Part shown: positions 5,938 to 31,669 of the stretch, in pieces | Position numbering within the stretch: position 1 is the stretch's first letter | Layout: each line of letters begins with the position of its first letter | Position numbers and translations under genes: made by a program | The notes under the pieces: model-generated | The model's database searches: none | What the model was told of the DNA's origin: nothing | What the model saw: only the letters and a program-made list of their open reading frames with translations | NCBI GenBank assembly: GCA_017416465.1 | Contig: JAFQCK010000066.1 | Span: 1 to 41,179, forward strand | Direction of reading: 5' to 3' | Source of the DNA: Lachnospiraceae bacterium | Lineage (GTDB): Bacteria > Bacillota > Clostridia > Lachnospirales > Lachnospiraceae | DNA length: 41,179 nt

Positions 5938-6960
5938 ATGGATGAGAAATTGAGTTTTAAAAATGTTGAAGAAAAAGAATTGAACCCTATGAGTGGTGGA
6001 TTGATGTTGATTATTAATATTTTAATGTATATTGTTTCAATCGGCTCATTTGTCATGGGAATTATCAGTACAGAAAAGTATGATAATAATGTATTATGTG
6101 GTGTATTTGTTACAACATCAGTAATTCTTTTAGTTGTAGCAATAATTGTTTCTTGTGGTTTTAAGGTTATTAATCCTAACGAAGAACTTGTATTAACATT
6201 CTTTGGTAAATATTATGGTACAATTAAGAAAGATGGTTTCTATTTTGTAAATCCTTTTGCTAGCGGTTATAATCCAACAGCATCAGCTCCAGTTGAACTT
6301 TCATTTGCATCAGGCACAGAGGGGCAGGGTAAAGTACAGGCAACTAATACTTCTGTTAATCTTAATTCAAAAAAGATTTCAACTAAGACACAGACTTTGA
6401 AGAATGATAAGCAGAAAGTTAATGATGTATTAGGTAATCCTATTATTATCGGTTCGGTTGTTATATGGAGAGTTGCAGAGCCAACTAAGGCGGTATTTAA
6501 TGTTGAGAATTATAAAGAATTTTTATCAATTCAGTGTGATTCAGTTATAAGAAATATTGCAAGAATGTATCCATATGACAGTATGGAAGATGATGTTGAT
6601 GAGAAGACTCTTAGAGGAAGTAGTCAGGAAATTGCTGACAGTATGAGAAAAGAATTACAGGAAAAAGTTCAAGAAGCAGGACTTGAGATAAAAGAAGTTA
6701 GAATTACAAATCTTGCATATTCAGATGAGATTGCAGCAGCAATGCTTCAGAGACAGCAGGCAGTAGCTGTAATTGCAGCTCGTCAGAAGATTGTTGAAGG
6801 TGCAGTAAGTATGGTGAAGATGGCAATAGATCAACTTGGGGAAGAAGATGTGGTAGTGCTTGATGAGGAAAGAAAGGCAGCAATGGTAAGTAATCTTTTA
6901 GTAGTACTTTGTGGTAACAAAGATGCACAGCCGATAGTTAATAGTGGTTCAATTTATTAA
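5938..6960 (+). CDS. SPFH (stomatin/flotillin/band 7) domain membrane protein
   Basis: A 340-aa protein with two N-terminal membrane helices (residues ~17-40 and ~48-72). An SPFH/band 7 domain follows, starting at VINPNEELVLTFFGKYYG and continuing through VVIWRVAEPTKAVFNVEN to a long alpha-helical part with EVRITNLAYSDEIAAAMLQR. SPFH proteins form membrane-anchored oligomers that organise membrane microdomains; the client here is unknown. No clear Shine-Dalgarno precedes ATG 5938 and a frame stop lies at 5917, so this start, or the in-frame ATG at 5989, is the only reasonable choice. It probably forms an operon with the RHH gene at 7145. Confidence 0.88.
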   Translation: MDEKLSFKNVEEKELNPMSGGLMLIINILMYIVSIGSFVMGIISTEKYDNNVLCGVFVTTSVILLVVAIIVSCGFKVINPNEELVLTFFGKYYGTIKKDGFYFVNPFASGYNPTASAPVELSFASGTEGQGKVQATNTSVNLNSKKISTKTQTLKNDKQKVNDVLGNPIIIGSVVIWRVAEPTKAVFNVENYKEFLSIQCDSVIRNIARMYPYDSMEDDVDEKTLRGSSQEIADSMRKELQEKVQEAGLEIKEVRITNLAYSDEIAAAMLQRQQAVAVIAARQKIVEGAVSMVKMAIDQLGEEDVVVLDEERKAAMVSNLLVVLCGNKDAQPIVNSGSIY

Positions 6961-6961
6961 T

Positions 6962-7109
6962 ATGTAACTGTTCAGAGCCAAGCAACTTTGGATAAAAAGT
7001 ATGGTGAATGCTTGTATTCATGAATACTTTTTAATTCAAAGTTATTTGGCGGATACGCCACAGCGAGGAAACACGTAGTGTTTTCAAGCTTGGCTCGGAA
7101 CAGTTATAT
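6962..7109. repeat. Cloverleaf-like inverted-repeat element between SPFH and RHH genes
   Basis: The ends at 6962-6983 and 7088-7109 pair over 22 bp with one mismatch and one G-U (core AACTGTTC/GAACAGTT and GAGCCAAGC/GCTTGGCTC). Three further arms lie inside. Arm 1: AACTTTG with CAAAGTT and TAAAAAGTAT with its complement (6984-7043), topped by TGAAT/ATTCA. Arm 2: TGGCG/CGCCA (7047-7060). Arm 3: GGAAACAC/GTGTTTTC with a 3-nt loop (7067-7085). The result is a four-way junction that may act as an RNA between the two cistrons or be a non-autonomous repeat. Confidence 0.7.
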
Positions 7110-7144
7110 CAATCTTTAATTAAAATAGAAAGAGGCAGATAAAG

Positions 7145-7414
7145 ATGAATTTAGAAGAAAAAAAAGAAGCTCTTGATGAAAGAGAATCTGCTTTATTACG
7201 AAGACTTGAAAGAATTGAACAATTAGAAAAAGAGATAATAGAAAAAGAAAAGTCTGTGAAGACCAAGGAGAAAGCTAAGAAACAGGTTTTACTTAGATTA
7301 GCTCCATCTTTATGGGAGGATTTAGTAGTTTGGGCAGATGAGGAATATCGCTCAATCAATGGACAAATTGAATTTCTACTAATAGAATGTGTTAGAAAAA
7401 GAAAAAATAAATAA
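7145..7414 (+). CDS. Arc-like ribbon-helix-helix DNA-binding protein with coiled-coil N-terminus
   Basis: An 89-aa protein. Residues 1-45 are almost entirely charged heptad-like helix (coiled coil). Residues ~46-85 match the Arc/MetJ ribbon-helix-helix pattern: a beta strand KQVLLRLAPSLWEDL, then a helix with the SINGQIEFLL signature typical of Arc-type repressors. A weak Shine-Dalgarno (agaggcag) precedes the ATG. It lies downstream of the SPFH gene, separated by the cloverleaf element. It likely represses its own operon through the TGATATCA array at 5738-5770; that pairing is inference. Confidence 0.8.
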   Translation: MNLEEKKEALDERESALLRRLERIEQLEKEIIEKEKSVKTKEKAKKQVLLRLAPSLWEDLVVWADEEYRSINGQIEFLLIECVRKRKNK

Positions 7415-7444
7415 ACATAACAAAATATTGCAAAAGATAAATAG

Positions 7445-7502
7445 AATCATATTGATACAGGTTAACTTAATAGTTTTTTAACTTGTATTAATATGATTTT
7501 AT
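7445..7502 (+). terminator. Rho-independent terminator after the RHH gene
   Basis: A long AT-rich hairpin: AATCATATT plus ATACAGGTTAA on the left pairs with TTAACTTGTAT plus AATATGATT on the right, followed by TTTATT. A possible promoter for the next gene (TTGTAT 7483-7488, 16 bp, TATAAT 7505-7510) overlaps its right arm. A small hairpin at 7523-7558 lies in the leader of the ATPase. Confidence 0.7.
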
Positions 7503-11834: not shown

Positions 11835-11871
11835 TATTTATGTGAATAAAAAGGAAAGGAATGACAAATTG

Positions 11872-13050
11872 ATGACTAAGATAGATATAATTTCAGGATT
11901 TTTAGGTGCAGGTAAGACTACGCTTATAAAGAAACTTTTAGAAGAAGGACTTAAGGGAGAAAAACTTGTTTTAATAGAGAATGAATTTGGTGAAATTGGA
12001 ATAGATGGCGGATTTTTGAAGGATGCAGGCGTAGAGATTACAGAGATGAATTCAGGATGTATATGTTGTTCTTTGGTTGGAGATTTTGGAACAGCATTAA
12101 AAAAAGTAATTGATAATTATGCACCGGATAGAATTATCATTGAGCCTTCAGGTGTTGGAAAATTATCTGATGTAATTAAGGCTGTAAATGATGTTATGGA
12201 AAGTGGAAACACAGATGTTGTACTTAATAGTACAACAGCAGTTGTCGATGGATTAAAGACTAAAATGTATATGAAGAATTTTGGTGAGTTCTTTAATAAT
12301 CAGATTGAAAGTGCAGGAACAATTGTTATTAGTCGTACACAGAAGCTTGTTGAAGCTAAGCTTGACGAATGTGTGAAATTACTTAGAGAGCATAATGAGA
12401 ATGCAACAATTATTACTACACCTTGGGATGATATTAATGGTGAGATTATTTTAGCAGCAATAGAAAAATCAGGTTCGCTTGAAGAAGAATTACTTGCTGA
12501 GGAAGTATGCCCTGAGTGTGGTCATCACCATGACCACGAGCATGAATGTGAGCACGAGCATCATCATCATGAAGGAGAATGTTGTCACGAGCATCACCAT
12601 GACCACGAGCATGAATGTGAGCATGAGCATCATCATCATGAAGGAGAATGTTGTCACGGACATCACCATGACCACGAGCATGAATGTGAGCACGAGCACC
12701 ATCATCATGAAGGAGAATGTTGTTGTGGACATCATCATGATCATGAAGATGGTCATCATCACCATCATGCAGATGATGTATTTACAAGCTGGGGTATTGA
12801 AACACCTAGAAAGTATACAGAAGATGAAGTTAAGAATGCATTAGACAAGCTTGCTAATACAGAAGAATATGGAGTTATTTTAAGAGCTAAAGGAATGCTT
12901 CCGGATGTTAATGGAGAATGGATTTACTTTGATCTTGTTCCGGGTGAATATGAACTTAGAAAAGGTTCGCCGGATTATACAGGAAGAATCTGTGTTATCG
13001 GAACAAATCCGAATGAAGATAAATTAAAAGAATTATTCTGCTTGATATAG
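11872..13050 (+). CDS. CobW/G3E-family GTPase with His-rich metal-binding repeats
   Basis: A ~392-aa metallochaperone-type GTPase. Residues 8-17 form the P-loop (SGFLGAGKTT), the metal-binding CxCC motif is in GCICCSLVGDF, and IEPSGVG follows. Between GTPase and C-terminal domains lies a tract dominated by His, Glu and Cys made of three 23-residue repeats plus a partial one, starting after CPECGH. The C-terminal CobW domain (TSWGIETPRKYTEDEV onward) is complete. Such proteins deliver zinc, cobalt or nickel; the insert probably stores or senses metal. The ATG follows an in-frame TTG (11869); AAGGAAAGG lies upstream. A second G3E protein follows at 13130. Confidence 0.9.
   Translation: MTKIDIISGFLGAGKTTLIKKLLEEGLKGEKLVLIENEFGEIGIDGGFLKDAGVEITEMNSGCICCSLVGDFGTALKKVIDNYAPDRIIIEPSGVGKLSDVIKAVNDVMESGNTDVVLNSTTAVVDGLKTKMYMKNFGEFFNNQIESAGTIVISRTQKLVEAKLDECVKLLREHNENATIITTPWDDINGEIILAAIEKSGSLEEELLAEEVCPECGHHHDHEHECEHEHHHHEGECCHEHHHDHEHECEHEHHHHEGECCHGHHHDHEHECEHEHHHHEGECCCGHHHDHEDGHHHHHADDVFTSWGIETPRKYTEDEVKNALDKLANTEEYGVILRAKGMLPDVNGEWIYFDLVPGEYELRKGSPDYTGRICVIGTNPNEDKLKELFCLI
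12523..12729 (+). repeat. Three tandem 69-bp repeats encoding the His/Glu/Cys tract
   Basis: In-frame units start at 12523, 12592 and 12661, each 69 bp and nearly identical, followed by a partial degenerate unit to ~12768. The repeat lies wholly in coding sequence and changes protein length in steps of 23 residues if it slips. Confidence 0.9.
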
Positions 13051-14716: not shown

Positions 14717-14773
14717 AATAACTGTTCAGTGTATTGAAAATATTATATATTTTCAATACACCGGACAGTTATT
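14717..14773 (-). terminator. Long terminator hairpin downstream of ylmH
   Basis: An imperfect 27-bp inverted repeat: AATAACTGT, then GTGTATTGAAAATAT, paired with the mirrored arm ending GACAGTTATT. On the minus strand it is followed by TATTTTTATG, fitting rho-independent termination of the galE-ylmH unit. Its outermost bases (TAACTGTTCAG) match the termini of the cloverleaf element at 6962-7109. Confidence 0.7.
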
Positions 14774-31383: not shown

Positions 31384-31669
31384 AATATTAAAACCGTTGA
31401 TGTGGAGATAAAAATAAAAGTGCACTCACAGAGAGTCGGGATTGCTGGAAACCGATAGAACGCATTTTATTAAATGGACCACTGAGGGCTTGGTCAAAGG
31501 AGATTAACTGGTGATTTCTGAGTATTCCAAGACGTAGAGACACGCGTTAGTTGTCAGGAATATGTTAGTATTCTGATGAGTGTGTGGATTCCACAAAGCA
31601 AGGTGGCACCGCGGTGATTATGATTTACCGTCCTTGATAATAGATTTTCTGTTATCAGGGGCTTTTTTG
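31384..31669 (+). ncRNA. Tryptophan T-box leader (riboswitch)
   Basis: Stem I shows AGAGAGTCGGGATTGCTGG with the AG-bulge and GGAAACCGAT-type motif. The specifier codon reads TGG (31475-31477) in AAATGGACC, so it senses tRNA-Trp. The T-box core AAGGTGGCACCGCGG is at 31600-31614. The terminator follows at 31630-31669: CCTTGATAA pairs with TTATCAGGGG ahead of a T run. Uncharged tRNA-Trp would stabilise the antiterminator and turn on trpBA. This explains the lack of a real gene in this 300-bp stretch. Confidence 0.95.

Follow-up and report, generated by a model that had tools for sequence, protein, structure and literature searches.

The window, i.e., the whole stretch of 41,179 nucleotides from a Lachnospiraceae genome that was analysed here, carries an SPFH/Band 7 domain protein gene followed by an RHH-like gene, with a highly structured element between them and all three on the same strand. 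The parts of this locus are the following:

5938 to 6960, + strand: gene of an SPFH/Band 7 domain protein, upstream, with its stop codon 3 nt before the element
6956 to 6963, no strand: left target-site duplication ATTAATAT, matching the right one at 6 of 8 positions and including the SPFH stop codon TAA (6958 to 6960)
6964 to 7107, + strand: MITE copy of 144 bp; + is the better-folding strand and is co-directional with the SPFH and RHH genes
6964 to 6978, + strand: left terminal inverted repeat GTAACTGTTCAGAGC
6984 to 7043, + strand: arm 1, a long hairpin of variable sequence that is paired in most copies and can be extended by pairing 6977 to 6982 with 7045 to 7050
7047 to 7060, + strand: arm 2, a TGGCG-GATA-CGCCA hairpin that varies little and served as a sequence filter during copy collection
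7062 to 7090, + strand: arm 3, given here with its extent in the family consensus, a hairpin interrupted by an internal loop of tandem G-A
7093 to 7107, − strand: right terminal inverted repeat, with 2 mismatches
7108 to 7115, no strand: right target-site duplication ATCAATCT, matching the left one at 6 of 8 positions
7145 to 7414, + strand: gene of an RHH-like protein, downstream (Pfam match of 19.7 bits, under the cut-off of 26)

Elsewhere in the window we noted a T-box leader (31388 to 31638; RF00230, 95.4 bits) and, by eye, a GTPase-like ORF at 11842 to 13050 with long His/Cys/Glu-rich repeats that possibly bind metal.

The original prediction had seen a cloverleaf of an outer stem and three hairpins between these genes, and this fold is real. 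As RNA, window positions 6950 to 7120 fold at -70 kcal/mol compared to -31.4 (sd 3.8) for dinucleotide-shuffled sequences, none of which reached as low a value (0/200; z -10.07), and the complement strand folds more weakly at -57.7 kcal/mol. The predicted coordinates of 6962 to 7109 are exactly the limits of the outer stem, whose supposed 22 base pairs turn out to be 21 pairs over 22 positions (12 pairs, one mismatch, and 9 pairs). In the fold of the window copy, this stem encloses hairpins at 6984 to 7043, 7047 to 7060, and 7067 to 7085, the third of which is wider in the family consensus (7062 to 7090) and then competes with the outer stem at its innermost pairs. Because the two outermost stem pairs fall within the target duplication, the element proper spans 6964 to 7107. 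It has terminal inverted repeats and no ORF of note in six-frame translation, i.e., it is short and free of any transposase. No intrinsic terminator was predicted at window positions 6700 to 7500 and no tRNA in the window, and Rfam 15 gave nothing at gathering scores over the element and a single chance-level match in a lax search (E 4). The earlier statement that the structure matches no described riboswitch class therefore holds for Rfam in both gathering and E-value modes.

The element belongs to a large repeat family. BLAST at E ≤ 0.1 found 53 pieces of it in the host genome, and a 15-base stretch of its end with up to two mismatches matched there 83 times compared to 2 times for a reversed control; genome G033 is similarly copy-rich (92 end matches, control 3). 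By DNA search, we found the element in 10 of 60 genomes, host counted. A covariance model, R1 (142 positions, 55 pairs), detected it in at least 137 of the 397 Lachnospiraceae genomes sampled and at least 130 of 334 genera, as well as in at least 15 of 391 genomes of a class-wide sample, 10 in the host's family (host counted) and 5 outside; these counts are lower bounds since at most eight candidates were scored per genome under strict filters. The window copy itself scores 147 bits against R1, which was built from 99 copies with the window copy included. A search of plasmids gave no match, a search of phages gave one, in the unannotated record MT837934, and a literature search, judged by titles and opening abstracts and with subscription papers mostly outside its reach, returned no description of the element.

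The 99 copies originate from the host genome, related genomes, and further Lachnospiraceae and were taken from among the matches listed, with those of G033 included in part. They were selected by their tips (at most 3 mismatches), a span of 120 to 160 bp, 10-base flanks, and the arm 2 motif (at most 3 mismatches), so the conservation of arm 2 is in part a product of this selection, in which neither arm 1 or arm 3 nor the pairing within them played a role. Starting from 110 matches, 100 remained after removal of duplicates and 99 after dropping one overlapping frame in L164. The host genome contributes 23 of these and thus has at least 23 full-length copies. Shorter forms also occur. A 55-base palindrome with the same tips lies at window positions 14718 to 14772 and matches R1 weakly (22.3 bits, E 0.0018), and versions of 33 to 98 bp whose flanks share 6 to 8 of 8 positions were seen in L060, L065, L074, L075, L076, and L079, those of L060 and L075 with a junction, by eye, at an AAATGC common to arms 1 and 3.

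The ends of the copies carry the signature of transposition. The 8-bp flanks are identical in 43/99 full-length copies (shuffled mean 0.69, maximum 4) and agree at seven or more of the 8 positions in 60/99. A previously assembled set of 63 paired ends, which overlaps with the 99 copies and includes a few overlapping frames, had a flank identity at length 8 of 0.744 compared to no more than 0.498 in 300 shuffles; identity at lengths 4 to 7 and 9 to 12 stayed inside the shuffle range and length 3 was marginal (0.455 vs 0.450). The target is A/T-rich; read in the orientation of the element, its consensus from 60 copies is NNTAATTT. In addition, the same-genus genome G001 presents an empty site, i.e., the SPFH gene, 36 nt, and the RHH gene without the element, which compares with 32 nt for the spacer of the window after subtraction of the element and one duplication. 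At this empty site (L256, about 1461 to 1476), the sequence that begins with the final base of the SPFH stop codon reads GGAACTGTTGGAAAGC and resembles the MITE tip, by chance or as a remnant. The element thus transposes or once did, and with fixed-length 8-bp duplications, multiple dispersed copies, terminal inverted repeats, and an empty site it is as good as certain to be a MITE, in keeping with the original guess of a non-autonomous mobile repeat.

At the site in the window, the copy inserted across the SPFH stop codon. Since the left duplication retains the TAA, both genes are intact and the spacer has expanded from about 32 to 184 nt. The likely effect of the insertion would be an uncoupling of SPFH from RHH expression; action at the RNA level is plausible here, and mRNA processing that sets the SPFH:RHH ratio is possible.

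Inside the ends, the family keeps a fold. When the 99 copies (97 distinct) were aligned by MAFFT without use of the structure, 95.5% of the alignment cells paired on the cloverleaf, and two-sided changes were found at 38/55 pairs compared to 21.9 in shuffled data. The covariation score of 0.336 exceeds that of shuffled alignments (0.121; 0/500 shuffles reached it) and that obtained with partners slid (at most 0.062), and since the shuffles ignore relatedness these covariation figures are not to be read as probabilities. Three hairpins form in 93/99 core copies and in 19/20 divergent ones (0.68 to 0.83 identity to the nearest core copy), compared to 35/99 and 8/20 after letter shuffling, with the evidence from the divergent copies being partly circular because they were hand-picked from the model's own matches. 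In arm 3, the internal loop is GA/GA in 84/99 copies (GA/AA in the window copy), and its flanking pairs swap with GA/GA intact (CG/CG in 44, GC/GC in 17, and CG/GC in 16). An alternative structure, in which the inner left repeat is paired to the foot of arm 1, has a comparable score and a better fit at column 18, so two mutually exclusive conformers may exist. A lack of compensatory changes and of other copies would have argued against the conserved RNA or repeat family of the original prediction, but both compensatory changes and many other copies are present.

The fold has a preferred strand. In 92/99 core copies (5 less stable, 2 ties) and 19/20 divergent copies, the + strand forms a more stable fold than the complement. 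With DNA parameters, it is stabler in 89/99 (9 less stable, 1 tie) and 20/20, and with the same preference under both parameter sets RNA and single-stranded DNA are indistinguishable by this measure. Among the 97 distinct rows, G-U outnumbers A-C at + strand pairs in every part of the fold: repeats, 36 vs 18; arm 1, 68 vs 36; arm 2, 10 vs 5; arm 3, 19 vs 10 (excluding one near-fixed G-U pair, 79 vs 1). Between 44 close copy pairs the ratio is 41 to 17. Shared descent inflates all of these strand counts. The close pairs change at 0.85 per site in stems vs 1.97 in loops. No strand bias appears among changes confined to one copy (G-U 10, A-C 10), and 57 such changes in stems keep the pair in 23 cases, break it in 32, and are gaps in 2. 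Consequently, selection would act on active lineages and not on each insertion, and single insertions may escape it. The earlier suggestion of a small structured RNA finds no matching Rfam family, but the strand-biased covariation leaves room for a role at the RNA level.

The surroundings of the copies show a bias at stop codons. ORFs were called mechanically (11/99 copies lie inside one), and insertion context could be assessed for 77/99 copies, the rest being too close to the end of their stretch. In 16 of the 77, the target overlaps a stop codon and the + strand is the one present in the mRNA, and in 4 a stop codon is overlapped in the opposite orientation; 39 targets lie outside ORFs and 18 inside. 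A position-weight null devised for this analysis, with ORF bodies left out, expects 5.3 and 11.2 of 77 for the 16 and 4, or about 4.1 and 8.6 when scaled to the 59 copies outside ORF bodies. Within 5 nt of a stop codon, 19 copies have the same orientation and 7 the opposite one. The effect is provisional, local, and modest because the bias is reversed at 6 to 60 nt past stop codons (5 same, 11 opposite) and the copies as a whole are almost evenly split in tandem orientation (30 to 26). Folding of the + strand in the mRNA right after a stop codon would be the most likely reason for a selected cloverleaf, and insertion there would thereby be harmless or mildly useful by providing a 3'-end or intercistronic structure.

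The ends likely belong to the ISBst12 group of the IS66 family. The closest tips were found at L253 beside a 487-aa transposase (NCBIfam IS66, 222.6 bits; DUF6444), with 15/16 bases of the right tip GTAACTGTTCAGAACC and 14/16 of the left tip GTATCTGTTCAGAACC as in the MITE. Elements at L248, L252, and L274 have GTTAC-type tips with 8/8 target duplications, and divergent MITE copies have tips GTAACTATTCAG and GTAACAGTTCAG that also occur beside divergent IS66 transposases, partly as single ends only. We infer mobilisation in trans: a DDE transposase from an ISBst12-type element would recognise the ca. 15-bp tips (GTAACTGTTCAGAGC), and copies would insert into A/T-rich sites with an 8-bp duplication. 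Genomes G022 and G006 each carry the MITE and an ISBst12-type element, that of G006 being broken, and DUF6444 was matched in 16/397 family genomes (11 above cut-off) and was not found in the host genome. No ISBst12-type transposase was found in the host genome, where another search, run without a positive control, was also empty, and G033 has no match to PF03050. None of the loci collected holds a longer element with the full GTAACTGTTCAGAGCC-type MITE repeat; a paired-end scan for longer elements (duplications of at least 6 or 7 of 8) among the loci collected by then gave only L096 of 345 bp; and comparison with six candidate parents gave no significant similarity outside the tips, so the inside of the MITE does not look like a deletion derivative of any of them.

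Two further candidates for the driver were rejected. The single IS66 transposase match of the host genome lies in this window, where a classical IS66 element with three ORFs occupies 32 to 2377; its right end GTAAGCGTC at about 2377 (by eye) is unlike the MITE, and its left end lies beyond the contig start. Locus L057 (741 to 4263, G033) has MITE-like ends 3.5 kb apart that could be a rearranged or composite insertion; as an autonomous form it was dismissed for its AAA-ATPase-like and AMP-ligase-like ORFs (by eye) and flanks agreeing at 5/8.

Taken together, we are confident that the element is an ISBst12-group (IS66) MITE, probably moved in trans and with a cloverleaf that is likely selected on one strand. 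That a transposase family other than IS66 drives it would explain why searches of the host and G033 found no transposase bearing these ends and why the two nearest-tip elements have poor duplications (2/8 at L253; 4/8 at L099, a broken element with tip GTAACAGTTCAG and a split ORF). This is very unlikely, however, given that the tips together with the 8-bp duplication fit several divergent IS66 elements and ISDge4, and that tips of divergent MITE copies recur beside divergent IS66 transposases. It is extremely unlikely that we are dealing primarily with a structured RNA gene or an mRNA-processing element of the SPFH-RHH operon that is repeated incidentally. The stable fold between two co-directional cistrons and the strand-biased covariation are what such an element would show, but the target duplications and the empty site in G001 largely refute this reading, and many other locations including ORF interiors as well as the missing Rfam family speak against it, too.

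The remaining alternatives concern the fold. Selection on it is likely, and probably acts on it as RNA, but the covariation could also be a by-product if the sides of each arm were copied from one another during replication (quasi-palindrome correction). Seven of the 99 copies have the arm 3 loop closed into pairs as such correction would produce (TC/GA in five, GA/TC in one, AC/GT in one), and single-copy changes in stems disrupt pairing more often than they preserve it. Correction may thus explain part of the covariation. As an account of the whole it is unlikely, because the tandem G-A mismatch persists in most copies while its flanking pairs swap separately, stems change less than loops, and correction predicts no strand preference. 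Alternatively, a folded single strand, e.g., ssDNA at replication forks, might be the substrate or target of transposition, with the strand bias reflecting that strand. GNA loops closed by C-G form very stable DNA mini-hairpins, and arm 3 has GNA loops in 66/99 copies, mostly closed by C-G; the + strand preference under DNA parameters fits as well. Yet the transposases of IS66-type elements belong to the DDE enzymes, which presumably act at double-stranded ends, and armless versions of 33 to 98 bp have good duplications, although these versions may be later deletions, so we consider this quite improbable. Selection of the cloverleaf on one strand could be taken further, such that mobility or survival across the MITE family depends on the strand-specific cloverleaf and insertions fall preferentially on stop codons, in the orientation that puts the folding strand into the mRNA; this extension is tentative, and we lean against it.

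MITEs are commonly accounted for by their two ends, which are considered to be all that they need. Here, the insides keep a four-part fold via paired mutations across 99 copies, one strand is preferred, and orientation at stop codons is biased. Whether the passenger sequence of a DNA transposon is selected as RNA is therefore a directly testable question in a common gut family. If the strand-specific cloverleaf does matter in this way, each insertion would bring its own harmless or stabilising 3' structure. The covariance model should also be useful for annotation, as the element could pass for a riboswitch or small RNA.

Among the closest known systems is ISDge4 of the ISBst12 group, for which the consulted section of its description gives a single ORF, a repeat of 8 bp, and the ends GTAACTGCTCAGCA and GTGACTACTCAGCA (PMC12898284). 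One of its tips, GTAACTGCTCAG, resembles the GTAACTGTTCAG of the MITE and both make 8-bp target duplications, but according to the same section ISDge4 encodes a 449-aa transposase where the MITE has an unrelated, folded inside without ORF (PMC12898284). Classical IS66 elements share the GTAA ends and 8/8 duplications (L222, L227, and L239), yet their ends continue with GTAAGCGTCAA, GTAACCGTCAA, or GTAAGTAGG in contrast to GTAACTGTTCAG, making them an unlikely driver. Among prokaryotic MITEs, the consulted portion of a review describes QMITE2 of Coxiella as similar in its terminal inverted repeats, 7 to 9 bp repeats, AT-rich intergenic sites, and folding transcripts (PMC10969869). No covariation of a multi-arm fold was found in that portion, and the terms IS66, clostridi, and cloverleaf are absent from the main text of the review (PMC10969869). 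REP sequences, as portrayed in the consulted excerpt of PMC3733652, are likewise repeated palindromic units between genes, but they are units of 20 to 40 bp, whereas the elements described here measure about 142 bp and have terminal inverted repeats and target-site duplications.
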